Assembly: GCA_001819875.1 (NCBI GenBank)
Contig: MHNR01000023.1
Coordinates: forward strand, 1 to 41,225
Source: Candidatus Ryanbacteria bacterium RIFCSPHIGHO2_02_FULL_48_12
GTDB taxonomy: Bacteria; Patescibacteriota; Minisyncoccia; Ryanbacterales; 2-02-FULL-48-12
Length of the DNA stretch: 41,225 nucleotides
Reading direction: 5' to 3'
Shown: piece after piece, positions 3,965 to 17,076 of the stretch
Layout: every line of letters begins with the position of its first letter
How positions within the stretch are numbered: the stretch's first letter is position 1
The notes under the pieces: model-generated
Seen by the model: the letters and a program-made list of their open reading frames with translations, nothing else
What the model was told of the DNA's origin: nothing
Database searches by the model: none
Made by a program: the position numbers and the translations under genes

Positions 3965-6217
3965 CTACGTCTTTTTATCCGCTACAAGAAATGGCAACAC
4001 CACCGTAAACACGCTCCCTTTCTTTTCTTCTGACTCTACCCGTATCGTACCGTGATGCGCCTCTGCAATATGCATGGCAATGTAGAGCCCGAGACCCGTC
4101 CCCTCCTGGGCCTGGGTATGCGCATTGTTGGCACGGAAAAACTTCTGGAATAAAAGTGCCTGCTGATGCTCGGGAATACCGATGCCATTATCCGCAACTA
4201 CAATCTCACATTCTGTCTCCCCACGCGGCACTACCTTGAGGCGGATCTTGCCTCCCGAGGGTGTATAGCGCACTGCATTTTCAGCAATACTTTGAATGGC
4301 AAGAGCGATTTTTTCCCGATCGGCACGCACCAATGGCAATTTTTTACGGGTTCGCACAAACGCAATATCAAGATTCTTTTCTCTTCCTTTGGCGGCAATC
4401 TCCTCGGTAATACGCTCTACCACGTCTTCGATTTGCACCGGCTCAAACTTGTAAAACAGCTGTCCCGCCTCGATGCGCGCCACGTTCAAAAGATCTCCCA
4501 CAAGCACTACCATGCGATCCACCGACTCAAGTGCTCGATCAGACGCCATGCGCTGGTCCGCATTGAGATCACCAAAATCATTATTGGAAAGCATACTTAA
4601 TGTCCACTTGATAGCCGAGAGTGGCGTGCGTAGCTGGTGAGCGGCGATTGAGACAAATTGGCTTTTGGCCTCATCCATCTCCCGCAGTTTTTCGTTAGCT
4701 TTTTGCAATTCAAAGTCCCGCCGCACCAGACGTTTTGACGCTTCATCCAGCTCGAGGATTTGTCCCTCCTGCTCCTTGTTTATCTTTACAATTTCTTGAG
4801 TACGCAGTGCGACCTCCTCCTCCAGACGCTCATACGAATGCTTAAGCTGACGGCTCGCTTCATTGAGCGTATTACTTAAATCCTCTAACTCGTCGTTGGT
4901 ATACACCGCCATAGGCGTAGAAAAATCCCCCGTACCCATACGCACCGAGCCTTCTTGAATCCGGCGGATTGGCTCGGTAACCGAACGCGCAAATAACGTC
5001 CCGATAATAGCAACTACCGCAACGAGCATCACAAAAACCCAGATACAATAAAATACAAGACGGGTAAGCTCGGTGTCATAATCCCCCACAAACATTACCG
5101 CCACCAAGGCGTGTAGGTCGTCAACGGGTAAGACGCCAATTACTTTGGTCACATCTCTGCGATCCACTGTAATGCGCTCCGCAATACCTATATCAAACGC
5201 GCCGGAGCCGACCAAACGGCTTAGCGTATCGGGTACATGAAAAGCGTCGACTAACGATGGACGCGTCAACAAAAATACTCCTCCGGAACCACCGAATAAT
5301 GATTTCTCAAACTCCCGATCACCCAAGTCGCCCATCTGGAGAAGATTTGCCTTGGAAATAATCAGGCTTTGCCAAATCTGGCGCTTGAGCGCCTCCTCCA
5401 GGACTACTTGACTGCGTCCATAGGCGGTAGTACCAAAAAATCCTACACCCACAAGCGCAAGCACCCCCGATATCGCATATATTTTTTTAAATAAAGAAAT
5501 CCGCCGATGCCGCACCAACGATTCAGCCTCGAGCAGTGCGCCGCTTTGCTTGAGCGCCGGTGAGACAATGCGCTCCAAAAAGAAAAATACCACGAACGAC
5601 GAGAGTATGGCCGCCAATGTGCCATTCAAGACATTTTTGACTATCTCTGTCATCGGAAACTGGGCAAAATATAAAAGTTGGAGCGACCCAATCGCGTAGC
5701 CAAACACAACTACCAGCACATAAACGATACTGGCGCGTAATGGCGCAGAAGCAATCCGCGCATGCAAAAGCGCCGGATCACGCACTGCAGATTTATCAGC
5801 TGTGAATCTATCAATAAACCGCAGGGTGCACACCACGAGATAGGCGACCAGAGCCCCCACCAACACCACCTCCCAAATGTAGGCAAACTCCAGCCACCGA
5901 AGCTGGAGCGTATTGGTATGCAAAGACAAAAACGAATGGATTGTGGCAAACCCCCAGTAAAAAACAAACACCACTGCCATTACCAGCACCGCTGTCTGAT
6001 GCCGTACGGTCTTCTCTCCATGGCGATACCAAAGCACTAAAAGTGGTAGCACAAGTATGTCGAGCACAATCAAAAATCCCCAAAAGAGGGGCTGTTCATA
6101 GGCGTAGAGCGTTTGGCGTATGATTGCCAAGAGCGTATAGGCGGTAATCCCCAGCCAAACCAAAAGAAAGACTCCCAGATTGATGCGAAAAAGATTTTTT
6201 TGCGTTAAAAGTTTCAT
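3965..6217 (-). CDS. Membrane-bound sensor histidine kinase
   Basis: 750 residues. Six or so hydrophobic helices fill residues 10-215. A seventh at about 245-265 leads into an extracytoplasmic segment (about 270-385), then a helix at 387-410, a HAMP domain (about 410-460) and a coiled coil (460-515). The HisKA helix carries phospho-acceptor H527 (AAHQLRTPL). The ATPase domain has the N box ENAVRY (N647), G1 DNGIGIP (676) and G2 GTGLGLY (706). All catalytic motifs are intact, so it should autophosphorylate and pass phosphate to the receiver encoded next. The ATG at 6217 is 3 bases after the FIST gene stop, with AAGGA directly before it, so translation is probably coupled. The ligand cannot be read from the sequence. 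Confidence 0.92.
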   Translation of the reverse strand: MKLLTQKNLFRINLGVFLLVWLGITAYTLLAIIRQTLYAYEQPLFWGFLIVLDILVLPLLVLWYRHGEKTVRHQTAVLVMAVVFVFYWGFATIHSFLSLHTNTLQLRWLEFAYIWEVVLVGALVAYLVVCTLRFIDRFTADKSAVRDPALLHARIASAPLRASIVYVLVVVFGYAIGSLQLLYFAQFPMTEIVKNVLNGTLAAILSSFVVFFFLERIVSPALKQSGALLEAESLVRHRRISLFKKIYAISGVLALVGVGFFGTTAYGRSQVVLEEALKRQIWQSLIISKANLLQMGDLGDREFEKSLFGGSGGVFLLTRPSLVDAFHVPDTLSRLVGSGAFDIGIAERITVDRRDVTKVIGVLPVDDLHALVAVMFVGDYDTELTRLVFYCIWVFVMLVAVVAIIGTLFARSVTEPIRRIQEGSVRMGTGDFSTPMAVYTNDELEDLSNTLNEASRQLKHSYERLEEEVALRTQEIVKINKEQEGQILELDEASKRLVRRDFELQKANEKLREMDEAKSQFVSIAAHQLRTPLSAIKWTLSMLSNNDFGDLNADQRMASDRALESVDRMVVLVGDLLNVARIEAGQLFYKFEPVQIEDVVERITEEIAAKGREKNLDIAFVRTRKKLPLVRADREKIALAIQSIAENAVRYTPSGGKIRLKVVPRGETECEIVVADNGIGIPEHQQALLFQKFFRANNAHTQAQEGTGLGLYIAMHIAEAHHGTIRVESEEKKGSVFTVVLPFLVADKKT

Positions 6218-6220
6218 TCC

Positions 6221-7405
6221 TTAATCCCCAATTACCAGCAAAGTCATCGTCTCATTATGAAAATACGCCGGCGTATTTTTTTTGCCCAAGAGCGGCCCTT
6301 GCTCACCGTAAGTATAAAACCCGAACATTGGCACATCCCGCCCAATAACATTTTGTACAATTTGATTTTCTTCGTTGCAACGGATGCCCAAAAGTTTGTT
6401 GCGCGCCATGCAGTTAAATACAAATATGAGCCGGGGCGTGGCGCCTTCCAGCGCTTCGAGCGCCGTATGAGCAGCTATCTTGGTAGCCTCCAAAGCCCGC
6501 TCACGATCCCCAACCATGAGACGAATCGTAGCACCCTCGGGTATAGTAGCCGCCATAATGATCTCCCCTTTTTGATTGGCGAATAATGGATCCCGAATCA
6601 AAAGCTCATCTGACCCTTCTACCGCAAGCCCCAAGGGATAGGTATAGGTCATACGTGCCAGCGGCTCACGTATCAACTCCATCGCCTCCCGTCCAAAATA
6701 TTTTTGGTAGATCTCAAGTGCCGGGCGGTGATCCACCTCCTGGAGCAAGGTGCCTGCGGCGCGGGTAACCCGCATAGGAAGCCCTACCGGCTCCCAACCA
6801 TGACGGATACCGAACCCATAGGAAAATTTGCCCGAGATGCCAACTCCCACAATAGAATCTGTGAGCACTTTGCCATTGAAATATTCAAATGTTTTTTTAA
6901 ACTGGTAGTCGTCCCCTGAAGATCCGCCGATAATCGGGAAATTTGCACCGAGCACCGATTGAAATCCAGCTATAATCGCCGACCCATCCCCCGTGATGCC
7001 ATCCGGTATAGAGATGAGGAGCTTGGGGTCAGATGCGCTCTTTTTTTTGATAGATTCTGCGAGTGCGGCACCTGCGCCAAAACTGTCTTTAGCAACTCCC
7101 TTACTGCACGCGAGGGTAAACTGCACGCTATCCGAAGTAATGACAAGCACTACTACTGCATCAAACACCGTGGCCAGAGAGGTAATCTCCCCTGCCGAAG
7201 ATCCACCAATTACCAGGGTACCTACTGGGAGCATATTGGCGACTCCCGCGAGCACATCTTGCTGATTGTAAACGATAGAGGAACATACAAATGCGATATT
7301 GGGTTTTACTGCGGGAATACTCTCGAGTGCTTCACGCACCGCATCTTCTGCGGCAAGCCTATGGTTGGTCAAATTTTTCCCCAATCCAACTCCTGCGTGA
7401 ATCAT
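6221..7405 (-). CDS. FIST-domain sensory protein
   Basis: 394 residues from the ATG at 7405. A FIST N-terminal domain runs to about residue 200, with KPNIAFVCSSIVYNQQDVL and VIGGSSAGEIT typical of the family. The FIST_C domain follows, with ALEIYQKYFG, YPLGLA, the IFVFNCMAR strand and a closing FYTYGEQGP loop. FIST domains are thought to bind small ligands and feed signals to kinases and methyl-accepting proteins. Here the gene heads an operon with a histidine kinase and a receiver. An in-frame ATG 27 codons upstream (7486) would add a non-conserved leader. A TATACT box ending 6 bases before 7405, with TTTACC 18 bases further up, favours a leaderless start at 7405. Confidence 0.88.
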   Translation of the reverse strand: MIHAGVGLGKNLTNHRLAAEDAVREALESIPAVKPNIAFVCSSIVYNQQDVLAGVANMLPVGTLVIGGSSAGEITSLATVFDAVVVLVITSDSVQFTLACSKGVAKDSFGAGAALAESIKKKSASDPKLLISIPDGITGDGSAIIAGFQSVLGANFPIIGGSSGDDYQFKKTFEYFNGKVLTDSIVGVGISGKFSYGFGIRHGWEPVGLPMRVTRAAGTLLQEVDHRPALEIYQKYFGREAMELIREPLARMTYTYPLGLAVEGSDELLIRDPLFANQKGEIIMAATIPEGATIRLMVGDRERALEATKIAAHTALEALEGATPRLIFVFNCMARNKLLGIRCNEENQIVQNVIGRDVPMFGFYTYGEQGPLLGKKNTPAYFHNETMTLLVIGD

Positions 7406-7562
7406 GTGTCCAGTATACCGTGAGTAGTAGGAAGCGGTAAATGGGAAAATATATATACCAAAAGTATATGTTGAAAAAAAAATCAAGATGTAAAAACTAT
7501 CATATGAAAAATTTGCAAAAAAAAGACCACCCTATTGAGTAGCCAGCAAACAGAAGAGCCTA

Positions 7563-12613: not shown

Positions 12614-14815
12614 CTACCGGGAAGCCACCTCTCTAGCCTCCTCAAACTTAATAGAGAGAAGCTTTGAGACCCCATCAGCCCCCATAGTGACCCCATAAAG
12701 AACCCCCGCCTCTTTCATGGTCTGGCGATTATGGGTAATCACCACCAGCTGGGCTTTTTTGCTCAAATCTTTGAGCATCGCCCCATAGCGTTGGGAGTTG
12801 GCCTCATCCAGCGCGGCATCCGTCTCGTCAAGCACCAAAAACGGCGGTGGATTAACGGCGGACATAGCGAACAAAAGCGCAATCGAGGTGAGCGCCCGCT
12901 CGCCCCCCGAGAGCATGTCAAGGTTCTTGACCCGTTTACGCGGGAGATCCACCGCAATATCCACGCCCGACTCCACATCCTCCAGCTCCTCATCTTCATC
13001 GGACACCTCGGCGTCTTTTGCTTTGCGCTTTTGAGCCTCAACCATCTTGAGCCGCGCCTCCCCGCCCCCAAACATTGTGGTAAATAGTTTGGAGAATTCA
13101 TCATTGATGCGCTCCACTCCTTGCACAAACTCGCGCTCCAAATTTTGCTGAAGCTCCCCCATGAGTGCATGCAAACTCACCGCCGTACCCTCAAGGTCTT
13201 TGAGCTCACCCGCCAAAAACGCCTCACGTTCGGCGATTTCGTTGTATTCTTTGAGCACCGACTCATCGATACCGCCGATCTCTTCAAGTTTGATCTTTAA
13301 GCGGTCGATTTTGCGACGGAGTTCTTCCCGCTCACCTACCTCAAACGGATGCGCCGTATCCGGTACCGTCGTGTCTCCCAAAAATCGCACCGCATCCGTC
13401 TCCTGTGCACTAAGTTCAGCGGCACGGATCTTGATGCGCTCGGCATCCACGGCAAGCGCACGTATGGCGTCTTTGATACGGTTTTGCGCCTCTTCGGCAC
13501 TCCGCAATCGCTCACCGGAAACGCGATAGGTCCCTTGTGCCTCGCCATATGCCGCCTCCAACTCGGCGCGTTTTTGAGCCAAAGTTTTGCGCTCGGCCTC
13601 CAGCCCCTGAATGAGCGTTTTTATCTTTTGTTGTTCAGCCTCAAGCTCACCCATATTTTCATTAACCTCCTCATGAGCGTCAGCAGGCTCGGATATCTTA
13701 TGTAAATACTTTTGGGTATGTTGTTTGAGATCCAAGATTTGTGTACGAAATGCCTCAAATGAGCTTGAGTGGAGCGCCGTTTCTATGTAGGTCAAAATCT
13801 CTCCAAGGGCGTGCGCAACATCTGAAAGCGGTACCGTCGCATGCAAAGGTGCCGTGCCGTGCCGCTTGGAGGCGAAAAATGCAAGTTGCCCCTCAATACG
13901 CCCCAGCTCCCGCTCAAATGAGCGATGCTTGGCGTCTAGCTGGGTGAGCGCCACCTCCACCGCACGCATCTCAAGCATCGTCGCATTATCCGGGAGAAAT
14001 GCTGTCGAGAGATTTTTGCGAAGCTCCGCAATCTCTCCTGCCATACGCGCCTCTTCTTCCCGCAATGGGTCTTCTGCCGTATGCAGACGCTCCTGGTCGC
14101 GTCTTACGGTCTCGCGCTCTTTGGCAAGATACGTCACGAGATTATTTTTTAACTCCTCGCGAAATTTACTGGAGGCCTCTACCTTGTCCGCCTGGACTTT
14201 GAGAAACCGCATATGCGGCTGAATCTCACGGCGCACCACCTCCACCTCACGCATGTTGACTTCAGTTGCCTCGAGTTTACGCTCGGCCTCCATGCGCTTA
14301 ATTTCATAAATCTTGAGCCCCAGAGCATCCTCAAGCATGCGCTTGCGCTCCCGAGGACTAGAGTAGAGTATCCGGTCGGCCTCGCCTTGACTGATGATAT
14401 GATGCCCCGAGCCGCCAATGCCGACTTTAGAAAGTATCTCAATAATGTCTTTCAGGCGCACCAATGACCCGTTGACCTTGTACTCGTTAGCCCCATCACG
14501 ATACACCTCACGCGAGATTGCCACCTCCTCAAAATCCACCGGCAGTACTCGATCAGTATTATCAAGCGTGATGCGCACCATGGCTTTGCCGAGTTGAGAG
14601 GCCCCCCCCGATCCATGAAATATTAAATCCTCCCCGCGTTTGCCACGCAGAGATTTCATAGATTGCTCGCCCAAGACCCAACGCATCGCCTCGGAAACAT
14701 TGGATTTGCCCGAGCCATTAGGGCCAACAATAGCCACCACCGGAGTTGGGAACTCCAATGTCACATGACGCGCAAACGACTTAAAACCGGCAATTTCTAT
14801 TTTTTTGAGCCGCAC
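12614..14815 (-). CDS. smc: SMC-like chromosome ATPase, short form without a recognisable hinge
   Basis: 733 residues; classical SMC is about 1,150-1,200. The N-terminal ATPase half is intact: IVGPNGSGKSN Walker A (31-41), then LRGKRGEDLIFHGSG and a Q-loop region (ISQGEADRIL). The C-terminal half has the signature LSGGERALTS and Walker B FLVLDETDAALDEAN. Two coiled coils lie between, joined near residues 310-370 by a short segment lacking the Gly-rich SMC hinge. An acidic insert (DEDEELEDVES) precedes the signature motif. It may dimerise by its heads or by a different hinge. No scpA or scpB is in the window. The start is GTG at 14815. Confidence 0.85.
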   Translation of the reverse strand: MRLKKIEIAGFKSFARHVTLEFPTPVVAIVGPNGSGKSNVSEAMRWVLGEQSMKSLRGKRGEDLIFHGSGGASQLGKAMVRITLDNTDRVLPVDFEEVAISREVYRDGANEYKVNGSLVRLKDIIEILSKVGIGGSGHHIISQGEADRILYSSPRERKRMLEDALGLKIYEIKRMEAERKLEATEVNMREVEVVRREIQPHMRFLKVQADKVEASSKFREELKNNLVTYLAKERETVRRDQERLHTAEDPLREEEARMAGEIAELRKNLSTAFLPDNATMLEMRAVEVALTQLDAKHRSFERELGRIEGQLAFFASKRHGTAPLHATVPLSDVAHALGEILTYIETALHSSSFEAFRTQILDLKQHTQKYLHKISEPADAHEEVNENMGELEAEQQKIKTLIQGLEAERKTLAQKRAELEAAYGEAQGTYRVSGERLRSAEEAQNRIKDAIRALAVDAERIKIRAAELSAQETDAVRFLGDTTVPDTAHPFEVGEREELRRKIDRLKIKLEEIGGIDESVLKEYNEIAEREAFLAGELKDLEGTAVSLHALMGELQQNLEREFVQGVERINDEFSKLFTTMFGGGEARLKMVEAQKRKAKDAEVSDEDEELEDVESGVDIAVDLPRKRVKNLDMLSGGERALTSIALLFAMSAVNPPPFLVLDETDAALDEANSQRYGAMLKDLSKKAQLVVITHNRQTMKEAGVLYGVTMGADGVSKLLSIKFEEAREVASR

Positions 14816-15368: not shown

Positions 15369-16085
15369 TCACTCCCACCCCTTGGAATCGAGCCCATTTT
15401 CTGCCGCCGACTGCTGGGCAATTTGTTTGGAAGATCCCTCGCCCTCCGCTATCAGCTCCTCACCCAGATAGACACCAACAATAAAATGCTTGTCGTGATC
15501 CGGTCCCCATTCGCGGGTAACCTTGTAGGTTGGAGTAACGCCCTCAATCTCCTGCGCTTTTTCCTGAAAAAAACTTTTGGCATCGCGGTAGAGCTTTTTA
15601 TCAAGTACATCCTGCATGCGCGAGAGGATGACGCGTTCAATAAAGCCTGACGCTACGTCATAGCCTTGATCCAGATAAATCGCCCCGGTAATAGCCTCAA
15701 AGGCATTGGCCAAAATATACATCCGGGCCTTACCTATATCTTTAGCCTCACCCTTGGAGAGTAACAAAAAATCATTGACGCCGAGCTCACTAGAAACAGC
15801 GGAAAGCATCTGGGAGTTAACAAGGGCGGCGCGATAACTCGTGAGATCCCCTTCGGGATTTTCAAAATTGAGATACAAATATCGGGTAACCACGAGCTCC
15901 AATACCGCATCCCCCAAAAACTCGAGGCGCTCATAGTGCGGCAGACGCCAATCAGGATTTTCATTTACATAAGAGCGATGTGTGAGTGCCGTATGCAGTA
16001 AGTCTTTGTTAAGAAAAACTACGCCAAGGGCGCTCTCAAGAGATGATATTTCTTTCATGAGAAGATCAACGAATAGCGAATTCAT
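15369..16085 (-). CDS. rnc: Ribonuclease III
   Basis: 238 residues. RNase III domain with the signature YERLEFLGDAVL (E52, E55, D59), the HRSYVNE helix, and ILANAFEAITGAIYLD. In the latter E130 is the E. coli E117 equivalent, and the usual Asp (E. coli D114) is N127. A C-terminal dsRNA-binding domain begins near 165 (DAKSFFQEKAQE) and ends with GSSKQIAQQSAAENGL. It cuts double-stranded RNA; the long pre-16S stem in this window is a probable substrate. A start at the second Met (16058) is also possible. The upstream gap contains several ATTCG/CGAAT units that can fold. Confidence 0.95.
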   Translation of the reverse strand: MNSLFVDLLMKEISSLESALGVVFLNKDLLHTALTHRSYVNENPDWRLPHYERLEFLGDAVLELVVTRYLYLNFENPEGDLTSYRAALVNSQMLSAVSSELGVNDFLLLSKGEAKDIGKARMYILANAFEAITGAIYLDQGYDVASGFIERVILSRMQDVLDKKLYRDAKSFFQEKAQEIEGVTPTYKVTREWGPDHDKHFIVGVYLGEELIAEGEGSSKQIAQQSAAENGLDSKGWE

Positions 16086-16152: not shown

Positions 16153-17076
16153 TTATTTAATAATTTCTAACGCCTTCTTAAAAAATCCGCGTACGTCATC
16201 ATACATAGTAAGCCCATCAAGCTCTTCGGCTGAAAACCACCGTACATCATCCAACCCCCCCGAGATCTTGAGTTTGAGCTCTGCATCCGGCGTGGATGCT
16301 AAAAAATACGTAACACGCCGCCGCACCTTGCCTCGCTCGGGATCCTGGGCGATATATTCATTCTCCCCTAATTTTTGCTCAGCAGTGACCGTACCCACCC
16401 CAATCTCTTCTTTGATTTTGCGCACCACCGCGGCCGTTATCTCCTCATCCGGCTCGGGACTACCTTTGGCAAGCGTCCAATAGCCAAACACATCATGCAC
16501 CAAGGCAAAATAGGTATCGTCGCTGTCTTTGCGATATACCACCGCGCCAACCTTTTGCTCAATCGGCAACTGGGCAAGCTCCTCGGGGGAGAGATCTTTG
16601 CGCGGACCGTCGTCCTTGCCCGGCTCGCCAATCTCCCGATATACCGTGCCCAAAACACCATTGATGAATTTGCCTGAATTTTCTCCGCCGAATGTTTTAG
16701 CAAGCTCGATCGCCTCGTTAATAGCAACCTTGGGCGGCACCTCTTTGTAGTTGCCATAGAGAAGCTCGTAGAGACCGATACGCAAAATATTTCTATCCAC
16801 CGCAGCGACCTGCTCGAGCGGCCACTCGGGAGCGGCTTTTTCTATAACAGTATCTATCTTGTCTCGATTTTCCAAAACCCCTTCCACGAGTGCGCCAACA
16901 AACGCCTTGTCTTCGAGACCCGGGCCAAACTCTTGGATATTGCGCGTAATAATAGTGCCCAAATCAGACGGAGCAAGCTCCAGCAGAGAGACCCCTTTGG
17001 CTTTTACATGCGCGTTAAAATCCCACTCATAGAGGGATTGCATTGCGATGGATCGAGCAAGATGCCGAGAAGCCAT
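16153..17076 (-). CDS. nusB: NusB antitermination factor fused to a Nudix hydrolase domain
   Basis: 307 residues. Residues 1-~150 are NusB: ASRHLARSIAMQSLYEWDFN at the N-terminus, VAAVDRNILRIGLYELLYG, and VAINEAIELAKTFGGENSGKFINGVLG, the family's most conserved stretch. After a linker (about 155-175) a Nudix domain runs to the end, with the box GSPEPDEEITAAVVRKIKEEIGV matching Gx5Ex7RExxEExGU except Lys for Glu after the Arg. NusB acts with NusE in rRNA antitermination; the Nudix half could hydrolyse a nucleoside diphosphate derivative. The gene has its own TATTAT box 6 bases before ATG. Confidence 0.92.
   Translation of the reverse strand: MASRHLARSIAMQSLYEWDFNAHVKAKGVSLLELAPSDLGTIITRNIQEFGPGLEDKAFVGALVEGVLENRDKIDTVIEKAAPEWPLEQVAAVDRNILRIGLYELLYGNYKEVPPKVAINEAIELAKTFGGENSGKFINGVLGTVYREIGEPGKDDGPRKDLSPEELAQLPIEQKVGAVVYRKDSDDTYFALVHDVFGYWTLAKGSPEPDEEITAAVVRKIKEEIGVGTVTAEQKLGENEYIAQDPERGKVRRRVTYFLASTPDAELKLKISGGLDDVRWFSAEELDGLTMYDDVRGFFKKALEIIK

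Follow-up and report, generated by a model that had tools for sequence, protein, structure and literature searches.

What joins the arm tips of an Smc protein that has no hinge? The question is raised by a gene in the stretch of Candidatus Ryanbacteria DNA analysed here (41,225 nucleotides, hereafter the window), whose product, P0001, an earlier note had described from the letters alone as an SMC-like ATPase of 733 residues without a recognisable hinge. It bears on a long debate: does the hinge take an active part in the SMC motor, as DNA entry gate and DNA-binding site, or is it a mere clip? We propose that P0001 is an ortholog of bacterial Smc, the only Smc of its genome, which works with ScpA and ScpB and in which the hinge has been exchanged for a hairpin clamp while a small ring is kept; we consider this explanation as a whole to be probable.

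On the minus strand, the reading frame runs open from position 14815 down to 12614, and the same register of the plus strand contains stops. An assembly or frameshift artefact can be set aside because the same form is common to the 30 proteins of alignment A1 (709-780 aa, P0001 included), which come from separate genomes. The canonical head motifs that the earlier note had recognised are all present, namely Walker A (GPNGSGKS), Q143, the signature LSGGER, a Walker B ending in LDE, and H695, each invariant or nearly so in A1. Furthermore, P0001 matches Pfam SMC_N and has an Smc-type ABC head, scoring 574.1 bits against NCBIfam SMC_prok_B (TIGR02168, cut-off 567.35) in two stretches, the best of which ends at residue 312. 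The closest solved chains come from Smc heads of Bacillus and Geobacillus; the best of these chains aligns gap-free with residues 3-210, and its C-terminal half with residues 505-730. A sequence search also found a homologue with 36% identity in Patescibacteria group bacterium UBA2193, and within its own genome (990,529 bases, rated 100% complete) P0001 is the sole Smc match.

The earlier note had placed the protein between SMC and RecN/Rad50-like forms, and its short arms, its missing SMC hinge and the Rad50-type zinc hook found in relatives of one genus (see below) could be taken to mark a RecN/Rad50-like repair ATPase, not a chromosome-organising Smc. However, the Rad50 model gives only 43 bits (cut-off 700) and the RecN model 47 bits (cut-off 408), so that P0001 has neither a Rad50-type head nor a RecN assignment, and both scores lie far under the 574 bits of the Smc model; the gene occupies an rnc-smc locus, ScpA and ScpB are encoded in the genome, and ScpA co-occurs with Smc phylum-wide. 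The intermediate placement therefore does not hold, and we consider a repair ATPase very improbable.

The apex of the protein is where it departs from a canonical Smc. Pfam SMC_hinge (PF06470) has no match in P0001, and a six-frame search with the same model found a hinge in none of 54 genomes (the genome itself and 53 relatives), with 10 of 14 controls positive. An AlphaFold2 model of the monomer, built on A1 (mean pLDDT 81), is strand-free from residue 142 to residue 586, and hence predicts no hinge fold in the segment of about 60 residues (310-370) that the earlier note had named as the replacement, an estimate correct to within about 15 residues given a hairpin at 331-371. The two hairpin helices are predicted with moderate confidence (pLDDT 72-76), and the linkers that flank them (318-325 and 375-382) fall under 50. 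At the stripe positions listed in Table 1, including both 347 and 348, residues are 81-100% hydrophobic across 29 aligned proteins, a set that contains P0001 and omits the hook protein L023. There is no CxxC motif in P0001 or in any of 98 fetched Smc proteins. A diverged canonical hinge is ruled out because hinges of the same phylum are readily detected (11 near-full-length matches, 95.9-111.8 bits) and strands are predicted nowhere at the apex; given the missing PF06470 match and the strand-free apex, P0001 is a hinge-replaced variant, outside the canonical Smc class.

The coiled coils are short, as the earlier note had said: the arms measure 150 and 173 residues, with a mean of about 162, values that are approximate since they depend on helix ends in the model and on a head boundary placed at 557. 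In the model, the returning arm (384-582) has several non-helical breaks, of which the one in Table 1 is the longest. The best Foldseek match of the model in the PDB is 5xei, the head of the Pyrococcus Smc together with its coiled coil and joint, which indicates that the head and probably the joint are retained and that the distal arm and hinge have been lost.

Table 1. Positions in the window of the smc gene, its parts and its upstream neighbour (residue numbers are those of P0001).
Feature	Position	Strand	Description or basis
smc (P0001)	12614..14815	minus	733 aa, GTG start; hinge-replaced Smc
N-terminal head half	14315..14815	minus	residues 1-167 (Walker A 31-38, Q143); alignment, AlphaFold2
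N-terminal arm helix	13865..14314	minus	residues 168-317, break 272-276; AlphaFold2
Apical module with linkers, replacing the hinge	13667..13864	minus	residues 318-383; hinge search, alignment, AlphaFold2, hydrophobic pattern
Hairpin helix 1	13772..13825	minus	residues 331-348; AlphaFold2; hydrophobic stripe 333, 337, 340, 344, 347/348
Hairpin helix 2	13703..13759	minus	residues 353-371; AlphaFold2; hydrophobic stripe 353, 356, 360, 363, 367, 370
C-terminal arm	13148..13666	minus	residues 384-556, non-helical break 480-494; AlphaFold2; end placed at head boundary
C-terminal head half	12617..13147	minus	residues 557-733 (signature 635-640, Walker B 662-664); alignment, AlphaFold2
rnc (RNase III)	15369..16085	minus	upstream neighbour of smc on the same strand; rnc-smc order recurs in relatives

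Beyond smc and rnc, some other genes on the minus strand of the window are of note. A frame of 1108 aa (37853-41179) combines an Ig-like domain with a C-terminal toxin domain of restriction-endonuclease fold (Tox-REase-7), and its product is possibly a secreted polymorphic toxin. A single frame of 307 aa (16153-17076) reads through a NusB and then a NUDIX domain, an apparent fusion, and at 3965-7486 a sensor kinase (HAMP, HisKA, HATPase) directly adjoins a FIST-domain protein.

Does this Smc have its usual partners? As the earlier note had remarked, the window itself contains no scpA or scpB (neither is among the listed Pfam hits, 20 larger frames having been scanned), but this absence from 41 kb carries no weight: scpA (256 aa) and scpB (190 aa) lie adjacent on another contig of the same genome, between flanks that by eye resemble aspartyl-tRNA synthetase and carboxypeptidase. 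The genes for both partners are thus present in the genome of P0001. The rnc-smc order of the locus recurs: of 86 distinct loci, counting that of the window, 73 have an RNase III gene upstream in the same orientation (77 of 91 when duplicates are counted). The order is shared with B. subtilis.

The earlier note had proposed a survey of related genomes for Smc length and for the presence of ScpAB. Of 54 genomes in the relatives set, 36 reach an Smc-grade match at E below 1e-60 (43 match at E 0.001, the excess being weak, partial-length matches), and the Smc is short throughout, with open frames of 705-855 residues except for cut or fragmented copies in two genomes (G001 and G012). No full-length Smc, which the earlier note had named as a refutation of its reading, was found in those members of the class that were sampled. 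ScpA occurs in 32 of the 54 genomes and ScpB in the same 32. Smc and ScpA are found together in 31 genomes, Smc alone in five, ScpA alone in one and neither in 17. The five Smc-bearing genomes in which ScpA and ScpB went undetected (G003, G004, G007, G034 and G046) include three, G004, G034 and G046, that are rated 97-100% complete, so that in these the partners may have been lost or be too diverged. ParB, present in 49 of the 54 genomes whether or not Smc is, gives little information on Smc.

The association extends across the phylum. In 379 genomes, most of them, like the others surveyed here, draft assemblies, we found Smc in 126 (E 1e-30) and ScpA in 130, both in 121, Smc alone in five, ScpA alone in nine and neither in 244, a co-occurrence with a Fisher p of about 1e-80 when kinship is ignored. 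As a separate observation, the 244 genomes in which these searches found neither Smc nor ScpA mean that about two-thirds of the sampled phylum may manage without Smc-ScpAB.

How far does the hinge-less form reach? The Pfam hinge scores above its cut-off in just 12 of the 379 genomes; 11 of these matches are nearly complete, lie in open frames of 960-1079 residues and come from three families, and one is a fragment. From the phylum we extracted 118 distinct Smc proteins, comprising 69 short, 31 intermediate and 8 long forms without a Pfam hinge and 10 with a canonical hinge, and their head-to-head spans fall at 351-421, 483-532 and 646-736 residues with the gaps between them empty, a separation to be read with the fact that the proteins were selected partly by open-frame length. 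The gaps are less clean in 116 of the 126 open frames from the phylum-wide Smc search, where 50 frames have 700-799 residues, 11 have 800-869, 30 have 870-905, two have 906-989 and 19 have at least 990; some of these frames start upstream of the gene. Taking 66 residues as apex, rough mean arm lengths of the hairpin forms are about 162, 224 and 320. The order in which hinge and hairpin forms branch along the backbone of a phylum tree is poorly supported, and for that reason we draw no direction of change between the two.

Two individual Smc proteins deserve mention in their own right. One protein with a canonical hinge (L136/L088, G107:C6) has a span of only 519 residues, compared with 646-659 in the nine others extracted, and the canonical hinge thus occurs on short arms as well. 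The other (L146, G349:C50:1200-5000) is an Smc frame of 1213 residues that has its Walker A motif split as GPNGSGK|S by about 460 residues; the insert starts with C-L-H-G-D, ends with V-H-N ahead of the S, and looks like an intein at the P-loop.

Is the hairpin of P0001 found in these other forms? When the A1 hairpin profile was compared by hhalign with the centre of 39 held-out short Smcs, the match was strong (93% probability, E 4.6e-7); it fell to 18% (E 1.4e-3) for 31 intermediate and to 4% (E 0.011) for 8 long Smcs, and there was no match to the 10 canonical-hinge Smcs (0.2%, E 0.27). With single sequences, the best hairpin match lies in the central fifth of 30 of the 39 short proteins (8 for reversed sequences), 12 of the 31 intermediate (7 reversed), 1 of the 8 long (5 reversed) and 0 of the 10 canonical-hinge proteins (0 reversed). 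Together these comparisons make a common origin of the hairpin likely for the short forms only. A second AlphaFold2 model, of an intermediate-length Smc with 30 relatives (alignment A2), also places two helices (381-409 and 413-439) at the tip of the arm, with a turn between them, and has no strand between 119 and 710, that is, in arms and apex. The turn is less set off there, with breaks of just one to three residues towards the arms, and the predicted hairpin of this form may also be read as a plain coiled-coil end.

A natural replacement of the hairpin is found in alignment A1 itself, where one protein of the same class (L023, from genome G050) carries CPMC at the hairpin position. A search across its family covered 147 genomes, of which 136 gave a match, and the matches to the hook protein are of two types, unbroken or broken in the middle; from part of both types we read 69 proteins, leaving out L167, which is of the unbroken type but contains a stop codon. 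The motif CPxCG is present in 37/37 unbroken-type proteins read, with C, P, C and G invariant, and all are from genus g47. The remaining 32 have no CxxC and, by eye, a hairpin; 29 of these are in g47 and three in other genera. The zinc hook occupies exactly the place of the hairpin of the 29 congeners, and head-to-head spans of 344-368 residues in hook proteins and 386-421 in the other type fit roughly equal arms with the apex alone differing. Of the 37 hook genomes, 34 have ScpA; each of the 37 has a single Smc match at E 1e-30, and none contains both apex forms together. An origin of the hook from a resident SbcC is unsupported: the SbcC model has some match in 67 of 80 g47 genomes, the listed places being mostly on Smc itself, and exceeds its cut-off in 0 of the 80, which is a weak test as only 1 of 14 controls passes.

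The distribution of the two apices within g47 suggests more than one exchange. In six pairs of opposite type, identity reaches 82-93% in the head halves but only 16-32% over the 25 residues that follow the apex motif; the arms of five pairs are 60-83% identical. In the sixth (L214/L205), the arms are 59% and 46% identical as against 92% and 86% for the heads, and these unlike arms suggest that the exchange is not always confined to the apex. A FastTree of head domains requires 10 hook/hairpin changes, 6 when support under 0.95 is collapsed and 3 when support under 0.99 is collapsed, compared with a mean of 23 on the full tree for shuffled labels. A quick IQ-TREE of the same domains gives 11 changes and rejects a single hook clade (AU p=1.4e-6), a test made after the FastTree had been inspected, on draft genomes and with kinship not fully corrected. 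From these sequence comparisons we conclude that two unrelated apices, hairpin and hook, have been exchanged several times in g47. The pattern could also arise if there were no repeated in-place swap of the hook, and two old gene forms were instead exchanged in larger pieces between related strains while recombination in the heads blurred the head tree. The mixed tree supports, with three changes left at the stricter collapse, agree with such a history, as do the arms of L214/L205 and the excess of shuffled over observed changes, by which the forms are partly inherited in blocks. It fits poorly, however, with five of six pairs in which the arms stay similar and the similarity collapses at the apex, and with hook genomes that have one Smc match each and never the two forms together; we regard it as rather doubtful.

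What, then, would the hairpin do? In the mechanism that we favour, the alpha/beta hinge and over half of each arm have been lost, leaving as apex a helical hairpin of about 55 residues with two linkers. Two hairpins would pair, perhaps as a four-helix bundle, and so join two Smc at their arm tips, while ATP-driven heads and the ScpA kleisin would close the other end to give a small tripartite ring, and this ring would handle DNA as Smc-ScpAB does elsewhere. The apex would then be a clamp only, exchangeable for another homodimerising clamp. The zinc hook is a homodimerising module in Rad50, and the simplest reading is therefore that the hairpin does the same job. Dimerisation of the hairpin, formation of the ring and a chromosome-organising function are what we infer here. 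The earlier note had argued that ring formation must differ from that of standard SMC; the junction does differ, but the natural hook replacement and the presence of ScpAB suggest that the protein still forms a dimer ring.

As a fold, a hairpin of two helices is weak, and it could bind something else. It may not be a dimerisation module at all, in which case Smc would work as two half-rings connected solely through heads and kleisin, with the hairpin serving as a binding site for protein or DNA or as a coiled-coil cap. The poorly predicted linkers would agree with this, as would the turn in the intermediate-length model, hardly distinct from the arms, and the marine actinobacterial 'hinge-less' SMCs, which are described in the available text without a replacement module (PMC12153180). 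Against it, a homodimerising CPxCG hook stands in the same place in all 37 hook-type proteins of one genus, and the hydrophobic stripe is kept on both helices across the 29 aligned proteins. We consider a non-dimerising hairpin unlikely.

Returning to the hairpin as clamp, we lean towards a wider view in which the apex of Smc serves as a clamp that stands by itself and can be exchanged, replaced from hinge to hairpin over much of the phylum and swapped between hairpin and hook many times in one genus, within a working Smc-ScpAB. If this is true, the hinge fold and the DNA handling by the hinge are dispensable in a natural SMC-kleisin machine. A laboratory hinge swap had suggested that the hinge is a clip, and evolution appears to repeat such a swap, with two unrelated modules and in very small genomes. 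Furthermore, structural and single-molecule studies could use the short forms as a minimal Smc-ScpAB (733 residues), and the natural series of arm lengths can be used for testing the arm-length rule.

Two parts of this picture were already known, a laboratory Smc/hook chimera (PMC5344682) and hinge-less actinobacterial SMCs (PMC12153180), going by the available text of both papers. A literature search that covered few subscription journals or preprints returned no recognisable hairpin-form Smc or natural zinc-hook Smc. The marine Actinobacteria 'hinge-less' SMC (Sussfeld et al., 2025; PMC12153180) resembles P0001 in having an SMC head without canonical hinge or CxxC and in not being found beside a regular SMC. 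It belongs to another phylum, however, and the accessible portions of that study describe no replacement module or kleisin partner, and no length classes, hook exchange or Patescibacteria case.

Rad50/SbcC shares with P0001 an ABC head, a coiled coil and an apex clamp, with a CPxC hook in the related genus, but P0001 has no CxxC, its head is of Smc type, and ScpAB genes are present in its genome. Among the closest known systems is also the bacterial Smc of Smc-ScpAB (TIGR02168), with which P0001 has in common both head halves with all motifs, a joint-like break in the head-proximal arm, scpA and scpB in the genome, a single smc copy and the rnc neighbour. It differs in lacking the alpha/beta hinge and in size, with 733 residues as against 1186 in B. 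subtilis Smc, and arms of about 162 residues as against the 344 given for B. subtilis in the text available (PMC5344682).

The same text gives arm-length modes of natural prokaryotic Smc at 238, 341 and 515 residues, and possibly at 163 and 423 (PMC5344682). The mean arm of P0001, about 162 and approximate, is near the minor mode of 163, and arm lengths of the hairpin forms as a whole are near, not on, the published 163, 238 and 341. Resized arms of B. subtilis Smc are reported there to be functional only in windows, the shortest at 253-267 residues (PMC5344682), and arms of the P0001 type are shorter than this. Finally, B. subtilis Smc with its hinge swapped for the Pyrococcus furiosus Rad50 zinc hook allowed cells to grow normally on rich medium, according to the accessible text (Burmann et al., 2017; PMC5344682). 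This engineered protein, like the forms described here, has an apex other than the hinge on the head and arms of an Smc; it was made in the laboratory, whereas in g47 the hook form occurs naturally, is conserved and interchanges with a hairpin.
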